From NCBI RefSeq assembly GCF_003950295.1, contig NZ_RHNP01000024.1:1-39386 (forward strand): DNA of 39,386 nt. Direction: 5' to 3'. Under the pieces are notes generated by a model. That model ran no database searches, had not been told where the DNA came from, and saw only the letters and a list, made by a program, of their open reading frames with translations. This DNA comes from Loigolactobacillus iwatensis (GTDB taxonomy: Bacteria > Bacillota > Bacilli > Lactobacillales > Lactobacillaceae). The position numbers and the translations under genes were made by a program. Every line of letters starts with the position of its first letter. Position 1 is the stretch's first letter. Below, piece by piece: positions 7,272 through 31,116 of the stretch.

Positions 7272-8036
7272 TCATCTCTTTTCGTACTTAACGTATTCAT
7301 AGGTGCTATTTTGGCTGCGTTGCACCATGCAATCATGAACTTCCCTGCACAATTTTTCTTGCTGAGCCTTCTTGCTAAGCGTTTGATCAGGTAAAAATGG
7401 CCCGTCCACGTACAGCGTTAACCGCGGTTTCTGCCCAAAACGGCGTTTCTGGTAGGTCGTCGTCATACAAAACGCTGGCACCTTATTTTGAACGGGGTAG
7501 TGAAAGGAAACGGTGGAAAAAGGCCGAATCTTCGTATAGTACGGCCAGACGTGGGCCTCCGGATAAATTGTCACAAAATGGCCTTGCTGCACCTTCTGCC
7601 CCACTGCCGCGGTAAAAGCACGCATTTGGTGTAAGGAACCCGGAATGACTAGCCCACCCATCATTGGGATCACCCGCCCGATCACTGGAATTCCTAAATT
7701 TGCTTCACTGGCAATGACGTAAGCCCGCTTGGTCAGCGCAACTTGCAGTGGGATGACAACATCGCCGATTGGCTGCGTGTGATTACCGTATAAGAAAAAG
7801 CCAGATTTTTGGTATTTTTTGATTACTTGTCGGTTTTTAACCTTAAGGTGCAAGCCTAACTTGCAATAACAAAAGCCCAGCAGCCAGGCGATTGCATAGG
7901 TAATCGCTGAACCAAGCTGGTAAAACACATTGGTGTGAAGCCACTTGTAGTCTTTTGGTAAGTGCTTATTTTGATTTTTGCTAGTCACCATATCGTCCGT
8001 AAACGAGTGATAATACTGAACGTTTTCCGCTTTCAC
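7272..8036 (-). CDS. PlsC-like acyltransferase family protein
   Basis: A 254-residue acyltransferase and first gene of the operon. It starts at GTG with AGGAGGGGG about 7 nt upstream. A hydrophobic segment at residues 40-62 probably anchors it to the membrane. Motif I reads NHTQPIGD (H86, D92): His and Asp are five residues apart, not the canonical four, so either the pair is shifted or the protein is a divergent branch. IYPEAHVWPYY stands where FPEGT is expected. The promoter and putative TetR operator lie at 8151-8210. Glycolipid acylation is inferred from the neighbours; catalytic competence needs testing because of the altered motif. Confidence 0.8.
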   Translation of the reverse strand: MKAENVQYYHSFTDDMVTSKNQNKHLPKDYKWLHTNVFYQLGSAITYAIAWLLGFCYCKLGLHLKVKNRQVIKKYQKSGFFLYGNHTQPIGDVVIPLQVALTKRAYVIASEANLGIPVIGRVIPMMGGLVIPGSLHQMRAFTAAVGQKVQQGHFVTIYPEAHVWPYYTKIRPFSTVSFHYPVQNKVPAFCMTTTYQKRRFGQKPRLTLYVDGPFLPDQTLSKKAQQEKLCREVHDCMVQRSQNSTYEYVKYEKR

Positions 8037-8150
8037 CTAAATCCCCCTCCTGACTTGCGCGTGGCGAATGATTTAGCGTTCGTGCCCACGGTTGGTAATG
8101 GAAAATTAATCAATCCCTATATTTTAACACAATTAGCGCTTTGCTCATTT

Positions 8151-8210
8151 AAGTGATTACTCAATTAATTCTCCCAATCCAAAGTATATTCAATTATAAT
8201 GTTTAGTCAA
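8151..8210 (-). promoter_or_regulatory. Promoter and TetR-type operator of the glycosyltransferase/acyltransferase operon
   Basis: Minus strand: -35 TTGACT (8210-8205), 16-bp spacer, -10 TATACT (8188-8183). The motif AAGTGATTACTCAATTAA (8151-8168) lies just downstream. The layout copies the mntH promoter. The leader is about 140 nt. No gene is seen in 8211-8430. Confidence 0.7.
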
Positions 8211-8438
8211 CCCTAACTTTAATTTCAATTAGAATTATTTTATTTATGGCCGCCATTCTAGTCAATCGATTAGAAAATTATGAAATAGTTTCAAGCAAAG
8301 GCCTGTTTATCTGCTTAATTACTTCATTAAAGTATAAGAAAGTAACGATTAACTTTCAAATATTTAGGCCTGAAGGTTACTCGGACTTTAGTCAGTTAGG
8401 TCATACACCTTTACTAGTCCCTTTCTGGCCGATTAGTG

Positions 8439-9045
8439 GAAACGCGTTAAAAAAGCAGATTCCTGCGGTTGCCATGTTTCAACTTGGCGCCTTTCGCCTT
8501 GCTAGTTCTTGCGGCACGAACTTTGCCACAAGAATAGACAACATTCGAAGCATCCTAAGTTATTTGCGATCTTTGCAAATAACTCACCGTAATTGCGAAG
8601 TAGTAGTTGAATGGACAACGTATGAAGCATCAAAATTATTAGCGTACTTAGCTGCGATTCGGACTTCGGTTCACCTTAGTCCGATCGACATCGTAAGCGA
8701 AGCCAGTAATAATTCTCAATTGCGAAATAGTAGCTACAGCAGTCACTTCGGCCGTTACACGGCCAAAGCGCCTACTTAGGCTAATCCTCAGAATCTAACC
8801 GCTTTTTTTAGCACTCTCTATTCTGAAACGTGTTTGAAAAAGCAGATTCCTGCGGTTGCCATGTTTCAACTTGGCGCTTTTCGCCGTAGTTGAATGGACA
8901 ACGTATGAAGCATCAAAATTATTAGCGTACTTAGCTAATAATTCTCAATTGCGAAATAGTAGCTACAGCAGTCACTTCGGCCGTTACACGGCCAAAGCGC
9001 CTACTTAGGCTAATCCTCAGAATCTAACCGCTTTTTCAAACACTC
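8439..9045. repeat. Modular palindromic repeats (family 1), region 2
   Basis: Two units. The first (8439-8818) is one of the longest in the window and carries extra hairpin modules: AGTTATTTGC/GCAAATAACT, a TTCTTG..CAAGAA arm pair, TCGGACT/AGTCCGA and TTCGGCCG/CGGCC. The second (8826-9045) has the outer stem GTGTTTGAAAAAGC / GCTTTTTCAAACAC. The second unit ends at the stop codon of the following TetR gene (TAA then GAGTGTTTG on the minus strand). No coding gene is seen. Confidence 0.85.
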
Positions 9046-15170: not shown

Positions 15171-15220
15171 CAAAAACAGTTACCGACTTCACCATAGCGA
15201 AGCCGATATTAATGTAGCAA

Positions 15221-26137: not shown

Positions 26138-26656
26138 TATCGTCCCCCCGTATTCAACCTAATCCATCTAATTGTAGGACTTAGACTGCATTAAAAACAT
26201 CGGCCAATTGATTGAATGGGGCTAGTCCCAGGCATGAGGTTGAAAGCGGGTATGCGGAAGAGCTATTTTGCAACTAGGCTGCTGAAAGTATTTCATCTGG
26301 TATTTTCCGATATTGATAGTTATTGTATTCTTCAATTAAAACAATCAATTTATCCATTTTCTCATGTACCTCGATCAAAAATTAATCAATTTATTATGAA
26401 CAATAATCTGTCTATTTTCTGTGGTATTTTAAATATTTACTTCTAAAATGTGATAAATGGCTATCATTCCTGATAATAACAACAAATTTGATCAGTAGAT
26501 TCAATATAATATATGATACTTTAGATTTTATATTTTAGTAAGGAGGAGAGGGCTTTCTATTTACACAAAAAGCCTAGTATTTTCTTAACTATAAGTTATT
26601 AAAAATATACTCAATCATTTTTTTACAATGCTATAATATTATTAAAGTTTATCTAT
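26138..26656 (+). promoter_or_regulatory. AT-rich leader and promoter region of the invertible cassette
   Basis: A gene-poor stretch. AAGGAGGAG at 26541-26549 is not followed by any start codon at usable distance. A GGCTTT..AAAGCC hairpin lies at about 26551-26575. A strong extended -10 TGCTATAAT is at 26629-26637 and points right, ending 19 nt before the left recombination repeat. There is no clear -35. Transcripts starting near 26644 would run into whichever gene lies to the right of the site. Confidence 0.6.
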
Positions 26657-26685
26657 AAATAACTACTAATTATTTGGAGGTGTTT
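26657..26685 (+). repeat. Left inverted repeat / recombination site of the invertible cassette
   Basis: 29 bp identical to the complement of 30123-30151. It consists of AAATAA (26657-26662), a 7-bp core CTACTAA (26663-26669) and the inner arm TTATTTGGAGGTGTTT (26670-26685), which includes the GGAGG ribosome site of the NTPase gene. The outer arm only partly matches the palindrome consensus. Confidence 0.9.
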
Positions 26686-26686
26686 C

Positions 26687-29065
26687 ATGACAAAAGTATT
26701 CTCCTATCCAGAATTGACACACCTTGATCAAGAACTTGGTTTCTTAGCTATAGGTAACAATAATCCTAAAGGAATCCCTACTAAAAGTGTTCTCATTGGT
26801 CATGACGGAGCGGGTAAACATTATCATATAAAGCAAACTCTTAACAACATCATTTCTTCAACCAATCAGAGTTCTGATCAATGGGAAATCTTCGATTGTC
26901 AAATTTCTAGTTCTGGACAAATAAACCAAGAGTATTGGGGAGAGAAGATCAAACAACATATCTTTTCTAAAAATCATGTTAACTCATTACAAAAATTATT
27001 ACTTAACATATCACTATCTCTTGGTCCAGTTAGTACACCATCACTGCAAGATATATTTCCAAGCCTTATCGCAAACACTTCAAAGCGATTGATTGTTATT
27101 GAGAATGAGTACAAAAGCCTAAATTTTGATAACTGGTTAATCAATCTTATTCTCAGTCAAGAAGATGCACATTATTTGTTAGTATTCAGTGACCCACCTC
27201 AACAGATCGTAACCAAGTTGGACGTATTAAAACACAGCTTGGTCTTGGTTGTCACACAGATGCCCAAATTACCACCTAACGTTATGACATTAGACCTTGA
27301 CTCCAATGCGTATAAAGCCATACGTCAGGCAATTAAAAATGTTGCGCGGCTGATGCACTGTGATACTGATAGTGTCGTTAAACAATTTCGTTCGCGTCCC
27401 GGAATGATTTTTAAATTAGCTAATATGAAGTCTAAAACAAATTTTCGGGATGTCTTAAAAAAACTAATAGCCGGACTGTCTCTTACAGAAGATTGCTTAA
27501 AGACTGTACACTCCGTATTGCGTCTTCTCAATGATGGTACTACGGAAGAAGATCTAGCACAGCTGATTGGAGCAGATAAAGCACTCCATATTTTTAAGTA
27601 TTTGAGGAAGGAACATCTCATTGAAACAATTCAGGGTATTGATCGCCTAGGACCAGTTTTGAGACTCTATTATCAAACATTAGACAAACCAATTCCAAAC
27701 CATATTGCCAAAAGAATCGACCAAATTTTTAAACGTAAAATGCCATGGAATTATGCAATTCGCGCGAAGATTGCTAAAGCAGCCGAATGTGAGTTGGAGA
27801 CCGATAGTTTTCTTGCCCTAGATGCACTAAGAGTTAATTCTGCTAATTTACAATACAACAGTGATAATTCTCACGTACGATTGGCCGTCCAATTACATGA
27901 AGCTACTCTTAAAGATAAAGCAACCGATATAGAATCACTACGCCAGTCATCATATCAATTATTAAATTGCAGTGAACCATTGTTGCTCAAGGCACAGTTT
28001 TATCTCATTTTAATTCAATATGCTAAAAAAGCTCGTATTGAGTCGTTATTGACGATTGCAATTGAAGAAGCTATTCCAATATATATACAACTCCGCAAAA
28101 ATGAGGAATATGAGATGCAATTTCGACTAGGGTTAGAATTAGCTCCGGATATTCGTAACTATAATCTTGATCGTCACTATCTCGATTCAGGCCATATGTT
28201 TGCAGACTTGCACTATCTCCTTGACGACTCGAAGGTAGACTGGCCTAATGATATCAGACTTACCTTTAAAATTATGTTGACACGACATGAGGGCGTCTTT
28301 AACAACATGGAAACACAGCGCTCACAACTGAAGGACTTATTAAGTGACGAAGTAGCCTCGTCACTTAATAAGGGTGAACGACTTCGGCTACTGACAAATC
28401 TAGTTGGTATTGATATGTGTCGATCCATTTCACCTTCAAATCAAAAAAATCTTCCTTATATTGACCAACTTAATCAATGTTTAAAAGATACACAACCGAC
28501 ATTTAAGGCTTGCAATAACCTTGCAATCGGAAGGTATTTCCAAGGAAAAATAGAACTCAAAGATGTCATTCATTATTTATGCAAACATTGCTATTCAAAT
28601 TCTGAATTAACTGATATAGCCTCTAATCCCATCCCTAAAACCAGTCATAAGGTTATTCATATGAATTTAGCACTACTATTAGCTGAAGAGGACATGAAAT
28701 ATATTCCCCAATCCCTTTCCATGCTATCAATCACGTTAAATAATGCTCCACAGGATGATTTTTATAGATTCTACGTTGAATACAATCGATTAATGCTTAA
28801 GTTTAAGAATAGGACGATATCTAAGTATCGATTACAAAACCGACTTGCAAAATTGCAAGTTCCAGCCTTATTTGAAGGATTGGAATCGGGTGATATGTTA
28901 TACAGACGTCTTGATAATCTAAACCAATTATTAGAATCAACTGCAATTAAGAATTATAGTAATTTGACTAGAAAATATCAAAAACAGATAAGAAATGCTG
29001 CCTGGCAAAGCTCATTACTTAGCCAATCGTTGTTACTTTATAGCGATTTACAATATTGGGATTAA
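26687..29065 (+). CDS. Predicted STAND/AAA-like P-loop NTPase with helical repeats
   Basis: I do not recognise a named family for this 792-residue protein. An N-terminal P-loop is visible: IGHDGAGKH (residues 37-45), a Walker A in which the usual final Ser/Thr is His. A Walker B-like strand RLIVIENEY follows at about 145-152. Residues about 265-335 resemble a winged-helix region (TEEDLAQLIGADKALHIFKYLRKEHLIE). The remaining 450 residues look all-helical, like TPR-type repeats. The architecture recalls STAND regulatory or defence NTPases, but no C-terminal DNA-binding domain is evident. Its GGAGG site lies in the left recombination repeat and a promoter lies just upstream, so it is the gene in the ON position in this assembly. 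Its stop overlaps that of the opposing ATP-grasp gene. Confidence 0.75.
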   Translation: MTKVFSYPELTHLDQELGFLAIGNNNPKGIPTKSVLIGHDGAGKHYHIKQTLNNIISSTNQSSDQWEIFDCQISSSGQINQEYWGEKIKQHIFSKNHVNSLQKLLLNISLSLGPVSTPSLQDIFPSLIANTSKRLIVIENEYKSLNFDNWLINLILSQEDAHYLLVFSDPPQQIVTKLDVLKHSLVLVVTQMPKLPPNVMTLDLDSNAYKAIRQAIKNVARLMHCDTDSVVKQFRSRPGMIFKLANMKSKTNFRDVLKKLIAGLSLTEDCLKTVHSVLRLLNDGTTEEDLAQLIGADKALHIFKYLRKEHLIETIQGIDRLGPVLRLYYQTLDKPIPNHIAKRIDQIFKRKMPWNYAIRAKIAKAAECELETDSFLALDALRVNSANLQYNSDNSHVRLAVQLHEATLKDKATDIESLRQSSYQLLNCSEPLLLKAQFYLILIQYAKKARIESLLTIAIEEAIPIYIQLRKNEEYEMQFRLGLELAPDIRNYNLDRHYLDSGHMFADLHYLLDDSKVDWPNDIRLTFKIMLTRHEGVFNNMETQRSQLKDLLSDEVASSLNKGERLRLLTNLVGIDMCRSISPSNQKNLPYIDQLNQCLKDTQPTFKACNNLAIGRYFQGKIELKDVIHYLCKHCYSNSELTDIASNPIPKTSHKVIHMNLALLLAEEDMKYIPQSLSMLSITLNNAPQDDFYRFYVEYNRLMLKFKNRTISKYRLQNRLAKLQVPALFEGLESGDMLYRRLDNLNQLLESTAIKNYSNLTRKYQKQIRNAAWQSSLLSQSLLLYSDLQYWD

Positions 29066-30120
29066 TCTGTAGTACCCAAGATTGCAGCTATTAAGTTACA
29101 TTGTTGTTCTTTCATTTGACTGACAGCCCATACCGGTGAAGAGTGTTGAATAACGTATGGTGTAGTCGCAATATCAAAACAGTAAAGTTGACCATCGGTT
29201 GTCACACGAAAATCAATTCTTGCATAATTGGATAAATTAAGAAAAGTTGCGACCTGACAGGCTCGATTTATTAGCCGGCACTCGATGAGCTCAGCATCAA
29301 CATTTATACGTCCACATAACATTTTAAACAATGAGTAAAACTCATAATCATAATTATTAGATCGAGTTTCACTTAATACTGAATTTTTGAAATAATATTG
29401 TTCATTGAAACTTAATCCAACTGGCGATAGCGCACGAAACTGTTTGTTTTCACCTACATGGCACTTAAGGACAGGCACTTCCACCTCAAAACCTTGAATT
29501 AGACGTTCCGCAATTTTTGTTCCCATTGAATCGCGTAATTTATCGTTGACCTCATTAGCTGTAAGTACAGGCCTTTCAGAATCATCTAGACCAATGCTAG
29601 CCGATCCACTGGCGTTCTTAAAAATAATTTGTTGTGTTCCTTGAAAATTAGCTGGATCCGTAATGGTGTATGTAGGAATATTGATTTCGAGCGGCTTGAT
29701 TAGCTGTTCAAAAGTGTGCTTATCTCGGCAAATATTCATGGCCTCAACTGAAGAACCAATATAGGATACTTGATTGAAATCGGCTAGACTAGTAATCACT
29801 GACTTTTTATTACCATTTCCACCTTGTCGTGTTAAGTTCCAAACTACATCTTGATCTACATTAATTTGCCCACTCATAATCTGCTTAGTGAAGTCCATCT
29901 CTGATGTTAAAAGTTTATATGGAATGCTCACTTCAGATAAAGCACTCGTAATTTCCATAATTTCCTCCTCACTAAAGAAATCGCTATCAGGTTGTTCTAA
30001 ATCACGTTTTACTGTTTGACCGACAATATTGGCAACTACAACAAGTTGGTGTGATTTAAATCTTTTCTGGCCGTGATCACTTAGTCTGCTTAGGTCATTC
30101 TTTGTCATTCTATAGTACAA
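29062..30120 (-). CDS. D-Ala-D-Ala-ligase-like ATP-grasp protein
   Basis: A 352-residue ATP-grasp protein resembling D-alanine-D-alanine ligases in length and blocks: WNLTRQGG..NKKSVITSL and YIGSSVEA (N-domain), RDKHTFEQL, the Gly-rich loop KNASGSASIGL (168-178), EVEVPVL and RIDFRV. The metal site is altered: FDIATTP (D316, A318) stands where ligases have E-x-N, so the Mg-binding Asn is Ala. Activity or substrate may differ (amino-acid or peptide ligase, or a degenerate enzyme). It starts at TTG 30120, with GGAGG 7 nt upstream inside the right repeat; the ATG at 30108 is 19 nt away. In the present orientation it follows the recombinase gene and its ribosome site can be buried in a hairpin, so it is probably silent. 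Confidence 0.8.
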   Translation of the reverse strand: MYYRMTKNDLSRLSDHGQKRFKSHQLVVVANIVGQTVKRDLEQPDSDFFSEEEIMEITSALSEVSIPYKLLTSEMDFTKQIMSGQINVDQDVVWNLTRQGGNGNKKSVITSLADFNQVSYIGSSVEAMNICRDKHTFEQLIKPLEINIPTYTITDPANFQGTQQIIFKNASGSASIGLDDSERPVLTANEVNDKLRDSMGTKIAERLIQGFEVEVPVLKCHVGENKQFRALSPVGLSFNEQYYFKNSVLSETRSNNYDYEFYSLFKMLCGRINVDAELIECRLINRACQVATFLNLSNYARIDFRVTTDGQLYCFDIATTPYVIQHSSPVWAVSQMKEQQCNLIAAILGTTD

Positions 30121-30122
30121 AC

Positions 30123-30161
30123 AAACACCTCCAAATAATTAGTAGTTATTTGGAGGTGTTT
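30123..30161 (-). repeat. Right recombination site: perfect 16-7-16 palindrome
   Basis: AAACACCTCCAAATAA (30123-30138), core TTAGTAG (30139-30145), TTATTTGGAGGTGTTT (30146-30161). The inner 29 bp (30123-30151) equal the complement of 26657-26685. Two arms around a 7-bp core is the classic layout of a tyrosine-recombinase crossover site. The outer arm also encodes the recombinase's last codons and TAA stop. Confidence 0.9.
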
Positions 30162-31087
30162 GTTAAATTCCGTAAATTTATAGTATTCCTCATATTAAAT
30201 TGCTTTAATGCATTAACCTTGTTAACAGTAGCAATTTCAGTATAGATCTGTGTTGTAGTAATGCTCGCATGCCCCAGGAGTTCTTGGACAACCCGTAAAT
30301 CAGCACCATTATTCAATAATTCCGTAGCAAAAGAATGTCTGAGATAGTGCGGTGTCGCGGACCGGTTTATTCCGCTTAAATCACGATACTTAAAGAAAAT
30401 ATTTTCTATTGACCAGATGGACAAACGATCGCCATATTTGTTTAGAAATAATGCAGAACTTTTTGGCACATATTTGCTTCTAATTTTTAGAAATCTTTTG
30501 ATGGCTACTCGAGTTTCATAACTTGATATAAATAACAAACGTTCTTTTTTCCCTTTTCCATGAACAATAAATATCCAGCTATTTAAGTCTAAATCCTCAA
30601 TGTTCATTAAGCTTACTTCACCAATTCTCATTCCAGTACAAACGAGCATTTCAATAATTGCAGTATTCCTAGTTGTTTGAAGCTCTGAAAATAGTGTATT
30701 GGCAAGATCCTGTTGATCATAAGCACCCTTCAGCAGCATTCCAACGTCATTATTATTTAGAACTCTTGGTAAGTCATGCCTTCTCTGTGACTTATAATTA
30801 AGTATCTTTGAGTCAAAGTCTGCAATCATTTTATTTTCCGTCAAAAAATTTCCAAATAGTTTCAGCGAAATTATTCTTCGATGAATTGTACTATCCTTAT
30901 ATTTCATTTTAACTAAATGATTAATAAAGCTTTGAAAATCATTGATCTCAAGACCGTCCTCCTTGTCACAAAATTTTATGAATTGATCTATATCACTTTT
31001 ATAAGCTTTCATACTTTTATTCGATAATCCTTTTTGACTCAAATTAGTAATAAAATTTTGATATTGTTCCTTCTCAGTGATCCGCAT
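30146..31087 (-). CDS. Tyrosine recombinase (XerC/D-like), predicted inverter of the adjacent cassette
   Basis: A 313-residue recombinase from ATG 31087 (MRITEKEQ), with AAAGGA 12 nt upstream; an in-frame TTG at 31108 lacks a site. The N-terminal SAM-like core-binding domain spans roughly residues 1-90. The C-terminal catalytic domain shows the complete set: Arg in [10 protein letters not shown]-x-x-R in HYLRHSF, the second H in LLGHAS and nucleophile Y in TTQIY. The stop codon lies inside the outer arm of the right crossover site, so the gene is physically welded to its substrate. The divergence from host XerC/XerD and the AT-rich context point to a dedicated, horizontally acquired enzyme. 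Inversion activity is inferred from the sites. Confidence 0.92.
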
Positions 31088-31116
31088 AAACTTAACAATT
31101 CCTTTCAATAAAAAAA

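Follow-up and report, generated by a model that had tools for sequence, protein, structure and literature searches.

A recombinase-linked, very probably invertible cassette in Loigolactobacillus iwatensis, likely a phase-variable two-gene switch of a family with exchangeable, immune-type payloads

The stretch of DNA considered here, referred to as the window, is the whole 39,386 nucleotides (nt) of contig NZ_RHNP01000024.1 from Loigolactobacillus iwatensis, and the subject is a cassette of two genes, one for a nucleoside triphosphatase (NTPase) and one for an ATP-grasp enzyme, which lies between inverted repeats beside the gene of a tyrosine recombinase (Table 1). The cassette is best read, and in our view probably correctly, as a phase-variable, modular, immune-type two-gene switch that inverts itself. 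It is very likely that the recombinase flips the segment 26657-30151 at a 7-bp core, inversion being shown in relatives and inferred for the window. An earlier note on this DNA had described the repeats, the genes between them and the recombinase, and had proposed that the segment inverts; beyond that proposal, the window cassette proves to be one of a family with exchangeable payloads, the defence system Thoeris among them.

The earlier note had proposed a search for both orientations among relatives, and both are present. Three assemblies (G1390, G1225 and G1218) contain the two orientations together. In G1390 the chromosome (C1) and a 17,061-bp contig (C2), the latter compared up to base 15,219, have flanks that are collinear at 99.97-99.98% around a 3,596-bp segment that is 100.000% identical and reversed. 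Contig C2 was deposited as plasmid NZ_CP010977.1 of Paenibacillus sp. IHBB 10380 and appears to be the alternative orientation of the chromosomal locus and not a plasmid (L268, against L266/L267), and entries labelled 'plasmid' may thus need a check for inverted copies of loci of this kind. One contig of G1225 has the promoter flank at both cassette ends, with both genes joined to it, and on a second contig the TIR gene adjoins the recombinase flank; the TIR gene is thus joined to both flanks. G1218 holds two 2,259-bp cassette copies, 100% identical and in opposite orientation, around a gap of Ns, beside which stretches of 126 and 134 nt from the same flanks recur. The duplication in G1218, like contig C2, probably arose in assembly, although the two orientations behind it are real. 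Between genomes, the same locus in L182 and L183 has a cassette matching at 96.2% on the minus strand within flanks matching at 84-86% on the plus strand, and in L184 and L185 the corresponding figures are 99.1% and 93-95%.

Assembly breaks point the same way. In five assemblies (G677, G680, G1270, G1395 and G1324) the cassette is a separate contig that ends exactly at the repeats. Those of G677 and G680 have an overlap of exactly 97 nt with each flank, against a shared repeat of only 25-28 nt; a k=97 assembly graph should be broken at such a place only when both orientations were read. The other three have just the repeat, 25-35 nt, in common with both flanks. Contig breaks at a site in G689, G960, G1254, G1240 and G999 are weaker evidence. 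The core is the same at both sites in all 18 pairs compared, and comes in eight versions among 19 cassettes. Strand exchange by tyrosine recombinases requires such identity of the core at both sites.

At the window locus the two 29-nt arms are 100% complementary over their whole length with 3437 nt between them. This repeat is far beyond chance, because the other inverted pairs of at least 27 nt shown for the 7-kb region are only 70-74% complementary. The left site is built as AATAA, the core CTACTAA (26663-26669) and TTATTTGGAGG, and the right site carries the complement of the core, as the earlier note had said. Its further statement that each gene has its GGAGG within the repeat is also borne out: the NTPase gene has its Shine-Dalgarno sequence at 26676-26680 in the left site, and the ATP-grasp gene, read on the minus strand, has its own at 30132-30128 in the right site, each 6-7 nt ahead of the gene start. 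The two genes are convergent and overlap at their stop codons (29062-29065). The right arm doubles as half of a near-perfect palindrome and the left arm does not. An extended -10 element, TGCTATAAT, ends 20 nt before the AATAA of the left site; a scan for -35/-10 promoters lists none at this position (26629..26637).

The recombinase had been described as complete in its catalytic residues and as ending inside the right site, and so it is, with its TAA stop falling within the repeat. It matches Phage_integrase (1.3e-38) and the XerD model (4.8e-64), and R161, K185/K188, H254, R257, H280 and Y289, which we take to be the catalytic residues, are conserved in 21/21 aligned cassette recombinases, that of the window included. 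The domain and the R-K-H-R-H-Y residues place it in the XerC/XerD-type tyrosine recombinase superfamily, and its linkage to identical inverted sites that flank a segment is the arrangement expected of a DNA-invertase phase-variation switch. A housekeeping role as XerC or XerD was considered and rejected: the scores of 216.4/216.5 bits fall below the NCBIfam equivalog cut-offs of 335.15/329.6, the tree separates the protein as well, and the window genome carries separate Xer-type genes on C2 and C8. In that tree the cassette recombinases are set apart from 17 Xer-type proteins and form a clade as rooted, with support of only 0.45; residues typical of the cassette recombinases are scarce among the 17 (R210 in one, K224 in none, K240 in three, K297 in none). 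One branch, comprising L050, L051, L099, L105 and L146, has support of 1.0, and in its readable cassettes (L050, L099, L105 and L146) the recombinase stands beside the promoter site and points away from the cassette; in the remaining loci of the tree it points into the non-promoter site. Repeats and recombinase are kept together in the relatives examined, the conservation on which the earlier note had staked its proposal. As a separate observation, the recombinase beside the SHMT-like/STAND cassette of L100 (5122-5637) is cut to 171 amino acids (aa) by internal loss, and the switch there may be locked.

Table 1. Positions of the cassette features in the window.
Feature	Position	Strand	Basis and remarks
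Left recombination site, promoter side	26657..26685	+	Inverted-repeat search in the sequence; outer arm degenerate
Right recombination site, identical to the left site in inverted orientation	30123..30151	-	Inverted-repeat search in the sequence
Full palindrome of the right site	30120..30164	-	Arms 30120-30141 / 30143-30164, 95%
Extended -10 promoter element (TGCTATAAT), close to the left site on its outer side	26629..26637	+	Best -10 match on that side
Putative effector, 792 aa: NTPase of STAND/AAA-like type whose C-terminal region is helical and TPR-like	26687..29065	+	Assigned through relatives; now lies on the promoter side
ATP-grasp (D-Ala-D-Ala-ligase-like) enzyme, 352 aa	29062..30120	-	Pfam, NCBIfam, profiles; now lies on the recombinase side
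Presumed invertase, 320 aa, a tyrosine recombinase of XerC/D type	30146..31108	-	Pfam, NCBIfam, alignment

The manner in which inversion could govern expression was examined in 19 of the cassettes, which furnish 18 pairs of sites, the other side of the G689 cassette being cut by a contig end. The promoter side, P, was defined as the site with the degenerate outer arm, which retains 6-9 of 11 letters against 10-11 at the other site; each cassette has one arm of each kind, however P is named. In RNA folding the mean probability that the GGAGG is unpaired is 0.35 on the P side but 0.0002 on the opposite side, with the same direction in 18/18, and the mean folding energy of the leader is -7.9 at P against -23.0 kcal/mol at the other site, a contrast that is partly one of construction since P was itself defined by the degenerate arm. 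As RNA, the right site of the window forms an 18-bp hairpin that hides the GGAGG, the leader folding at -26.1 kcal/mol. The P site has the better -10 score in 15/18 pairs, with three ties (p=6e-4), and in 13/13 cassettes from outside the Paenibacillaceae a TATAAT (11) or TACAAT (2) ends 5-20 nt outside the P site, nine of these boxes having TG one base before. Which gene lies on the promoter side varies: it is the NTPase gene in L183 and L184, and the ATP-grasp gene in L182 and L185. With a degenerate arm at one site and a hairpin over the ribosome-binding site (RBS) at the other, one gene per orientation would be favoured, and the mutually exclusive expression of the two window genes that the earlier note had proposed is suggested by the same anatomy. 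In 30/30 selected loci of the window type (L117 and L249 being one strain) the recombinase reading frame stops at -2 to +18 nt relative to the AATAA in the hairpin site, and the terminating ribosome could therefore open the hairpin at the RBS of the second gene; low, coupled expression of that gene is possible in this layout, because the recombinase gene reads into the hairpin site.

These features can be assembled into a mechanism. The dedicated recombinase would exchange strands at the 7-bp core of the inverted sites and flip the segment between them, each site bringing the Shine-Dalgarno sequence of the gene that adjoins it. At the P site, with a promoter just outside, transcription would probably start within the site, leaving the RBS free and the gene expressed; at the other site, a transcript entering from outside through the full-palindrome outer arm would hide the RBS in a hairpin. 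One gene would accordingly be ON and the other OFF or low, and inversion would swap them, which the anatomy of the sites makes likely. Translation of the recombinase into the hairpin might in addition open the second RBS and give a pulse of the second protein along with recombinase synthesis in the window-type layout, a step we hold to be possible and somewhat doubtful.

The family to which the cassette belongs was found in two ways. Six short recombinase peptide patterns, scanned once over a collection of 84,980 species, returned two relatives, L050 from Lactococcus piscium and L051 on a short contig. In L050, 40-nt inverted repeats (98%) enclose convergent TIR and SIR2-STALD genes, identified by PADLOC as ThsB and ThsA (ThsA 4.5e-112), and window and L050 share the site form AATAA-N7-TTATTTGGAGG. 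That pattern matched in 13/105 genomes of one family, 13/398 of the class and 36/374 of the family of G952, against 0/105, 5/398 and 5/374 for the reversed pattern as a chance control; a looser first version had matched in 13/395 genomes of the order of the window. The family of G952 is called Paenibacillaceae here since C2 of its member G1390 contains, letter for letter, a 16,700-base part of the Paenibacillus sp. IHBB 10380 plasmid record. Cassette and payload were readable in 43 genomes, 13 of Lactobacillales type and 30 Paenibacillaceae, the latter being 30 of the 36 pattern-matched genomes of that family. The second site retains 19-22 of 23 letters in L234, L237, L248, L251 and L252, and L186 has one complete site only. 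The count leaves out loci with the pattern and no adjoining recombinase relative (L104, L155, L188, L190-L194), loci with a recombinase and no readable payload (L147, L149, L051, L189 in G999, L235/L236 in G1254, L245 in G1242, L259/L260 in G1240) and the pattern matches in G1357 and G1388, as well as five g67 genomes with another core. In these five genomes, for example L086-L090, there is a conserved palindrome, CTCCAAAT-N11-ATTTGGAG, with TTCGAA in the middle, and no site of the cassette form was found in L106, the sole region examined there. Other loci of interest are L149 (about 7853-8836), with a recombinase, a single site and no payload, apparently an empty locus; L147 (7000-7827), with a shortened recombinase and a single site, apparently decayed; and L104 (7712-7738), where a perfect palindrome resembling a site but differing in its core adjoins what read as McrBC-like restriction genes, in a neighbourhood that lacks a recombinase relative.

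All 43 cassettes enclose two convergent genes between sites of the form AATAA-N7-TTATTTGGAGG. Judged by Pfam and by BLAST against reference members, 21 of them, the window included, carry an ATP-grasp protein with an AAA/STAND-like NTPase; L115 has an extra GNAT gene, and in L231 (4763-7157) the NTPase is split over several frames and apparently decayed. Six carry Thoeris ThsB/ThsA (L050 and L102 by PADLOC, L187 by Pfam, L233, L261 and L263 by BLAST). The others pair an SHMT-like pyridoxal-phosphate enzyme with a STAND/TPR protein (five), a methyltransferase with a probable membrane protein (four, the partner in L105 not recognisably that of L099), a polyprenyl-synthetase-like protein with a probable membrane protein (three), an aminotransferase with a pentapeptide-repeat protein (two) and a radical SAM protein with an NTPase (two). 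The labels 'membrane' and 'effector' are putative and come from reading the sequences and their partners. STAND-like partners occur in 28 of the 37 non-Thoeris cassettes. Payloads appear to have been exchanged between cassettes, because payload type does not follow the recombinase tree, as judged by eye, and L183 and L184 have flanks that are 95-97% identical and payloads that cannot be aligned as DNA. That L099 and L100 might be one cassette in two orientations was ruled out, their payloads being different. A phage origin was likewise set aside: 34 viral stretches match the looser site pattern, and no recombinase relative was found in the viral DNA examined. A search of 50,697 phage records with the L102 recombinase gave relatives of at most 37% identity. 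Among plasmid records that of IHBB 10380 stands out, with a recombinase identity of 41-47% against at most 37% in others. For the window cassette itself, the guanine-plus-cytosine content is 0.36 in the segment and 0.32 in the recombinase gene against 0.42-0.44 in the flanks, and in the sister species G005 the HelD, amidohydrolase and regulator genes lie close together with no cassette in the 10 kb read. Both are consistent with horizontal gain, without proving it; the amidohydrolase/regulator pair in G005 is turned round relative to HelD, and a clean empty site is not found there.

The P-loop that the earlier note named in the window NTPase is there in degenerate form (GHDGAGKH), and no Pfam family reaches its cut-off when the protein is searched alone; its STAND/AAA-like character seems recognisable through relatives only. 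Among nine aligned NTPases some match AAA_22 (four), AAA_16 (three), NB-ARC (three) or nSTAND models, and an NTPase profile meets NB-ARC/TPR partners at a probability of 96.7, a three-member profile at 70.9. The identity of window and L148 proteins is 23% for the NTPase and 35% for the ATP-grasp enzyme. The latter belongs to the Ddl fold family (PF07478, 30.2 bits against a cut-off of 24); a true Ddl was rejected, the NCBIfam subfamily score being 48.9 against 245.65 bits. The D-Ala-D-Ala-ligase C-terminal family is matched by eight of nine aligned members, the ninth (L186) being a radical SAM protein, and a PDB profile search with the same alignment, that member included, finds Ddl structures. 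Ddl enzymes have E-x-N at the last metal-ligand motif; the eight ATP-grasp members have D-I-A/S/T, and therefore their metal binding, substrate or chemistry may be changed. No close relative of the enzyme was found among seven other genomes of the genus of the window, and across 397 genomes of its family, its own included, weak matches occur in 13 others (E 7e-6 to 9e-4) that are taken for Ddl-type enzymes. PADLOC does not match the pair as Thoeris, that is, as TIR and SIR2-STALD ThsA.

We lean towards regarding the ATP-grasp/NTPase pair as an anti-phage or similar immune-type system under phase variation, because six of the 43 cassettes carry Thoeris and most of the others a STAND-like partner. 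Several observations weigh against the overall reading. In the window genome the full segment is present once, in one orientation and with no assembly break. PADLOC gives no defence family for the ATP-grasp/NTPase pair, and none is matched over full length by 24 sampled non-Thoeris payload proteins, whose matches are weak or partial, the best being mad2 for the L105 methyltransferase (1.6e-9). With regard to gating, there is the partly built-in nature of the hairpin contrast; the GGAGG on the P side of the window has an unpaired probability of only 0.13; six Paenibacillaceae-type cassettes (L117, L182-L185 and L187) have no good -10 near the P site; and a terminator scan does not call the window palindrome an intrinsic terminator, so that only an RBS hairpin is claimed. 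Finally, Thoeris needs both of its proteins, which sits badly with strictly exclusive expression.

In one alternative both genes would always be expressed, high on the promoter side and low on the other, with inversion only tuning the ratio of effector to enzyme between alert and tolerant states. Read-through from the recombinase in the window-type layout and TATAAT boxes 31 nt outside the recombinase-side site in L148, L150, G680 and L154 fit such a dosage switch, which we nevertheless think rather unlikely in view of the strong RBS hairpin at the recombinase-side site in 18/18. The two proteins might instead be needed together and be co-present only just after a flip or during recombinase synthesis, so that inversion arms the system, for example on infection. 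Thoeris pairs act together, the payloads pair an enzyme with a putative effector, and the position of the recombinase stop codon permits translational coupling; in L050, L099, L105 and L146, by contrast, the recombinase is transcribed away from the cassette and such coupling is impossible, and we judge this account unlikely. Unlikely to a similar degree is a phase variation unrelated to immunity, between alternative cell-surface or metabolic states such as a modified cell-wall precursor, in the manner of surface-antigen switches. The D-Ala-D-Ala-ligase-like ATP-grasp enzyme speaks for it, as do the metabolic type of the other payload enzymes (SHMT-like, aminotransferase, prenyl synthase, methyltransferase, radical SAM) and the failure of PADLOC to give the sampled ones a full-length defence family, but Thoeris and STAND-like partners occur in the same cassette family.

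Another reading, which we think improbable, makes the repeats an exchange site or the termini of a mobile element; inversion would then merely accompany the exchange of payloads. The unlike payloads within like flanks of L183/L184, the cassette-free neighbourhood in G005 and the one apparently empty site, L149, are what this would predict; both orientations within single strains, and a placement of RBS and promoter that makes sense as a switch, are not. That inversion is an assembly artefact or the repeats are a chance occurrence is hardly credible. In its favour are the probable assembly artefacts in G1390 and G1218, although these are of two real orientations; against it, sites of one form, next to recombinases that belong to a single clade, recur in genome after genome, and opposite orientations occur in independent assemblies. 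Returning to the self-inverting immune-type switch, its most elaborate form would be a horizontally exchanged module that holds an enzyme making a signal or a metabolite, and the effector belonging to it, in mutually exclusive states, armed only in just-flipped cells or through division of labour between two cell types of a clone, and in which the recombination site doubles as ribosome-binding site and RNA lock; this whole, taken jointly, is a speculative and unlikely extension.

If the switch is as proposed, phase variation would act on whole two-component immune-type systems with their components split between orientations, and it becomes testable whether bacteria save the cost of immunity by keeping its parts disassembled. 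Site and recombinase together are a search handle that has yielded 43 payload pairs, 37 of them non-Thoeris. Should a flip-armed or division-of-labour immune switch be true, the ATP-grasp/NTPase, SHMT-like/STAND, methyltransferase/membrane, prenyl-synthase/membrane, aminotransferase/pentapeptide and radical-SAM/NTPase pairs would be undescribed two-component defence systems. The cassette is also a compact natural two-state gene switch.

The earlier note knew of no described system with this gene content, and none was found in a search of the literature that was judged from titles and the opening lines of abstracts and reached neither bioRxiv nor most subscription journals; nor did that search turn up an invertible Thoeris, this cassette, an RBS-bearing recombination site, exchangeable enzyme/effector payloads or the present combination of features. 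The cassette was not found in the excerpted texts of PMC12529663 (PinQ) and PMC5903667 either. The proposal that the whole coding payload flips is borne out in relatives; such flipping is not in itself new. In FimB/FimE fimS and Bacteroides Mpi, which likewise combine a site-specific recombinase with inverted sites, it is the promoter that flips, whereas here the coding genes flip and the promoter is fixed. Alternative coding genes flip behind a fixed promoter in the phage Mu G segment and the P1 C segment, which differ in their serine recombinases, their variable tail-fibre genes and their lack of an enzyme/effector pair. The same principle is known from the Ureaplasma loci mba/UU376 and UU172/UU171, named alongside Mycoplasma vsp/vpma, where neighbouring coding genes are expressed in turn from a single promoter as the DNA inverts at short inverted repeats (excerpt of PMC3047005). 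Those loci encode surface proteins and have other gene content, inversion there fuses a 5' gene part to either open reading frame, and the excerpt mentions no RBS-bearing palindromic site such as the window cassette has (PMC3047005). RNA silencing of an OFF state is known as well: for Clostridioides difficile CwpV the promoter lies outside the invertible segment and an RNA structure is put forward as the cause of silence in the OFF orientation, but what flips is 195 bp of non-coding DNA that turns one gene ON or OFF, and the model is a terminator and not an RBS hairpin (excerpt of PMC2784873). Phase-variable restriction systems are also known, among them the pneumococcal PsrA/hsdS locus with its recombinase-driven inversions, where the hsdS specificity genes of one system are rearranged (excerpts of PMC7096588 and PMC4948785). 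As for Thoeris, TIR and SIR2-STALD proteins of the ThsB and ThsA kinds are paired in six of the 43 cassettes, which differ from that system in that their genes are convergent within an invertible segment; the window pair, itself not Thoeris, shares that arrangement.

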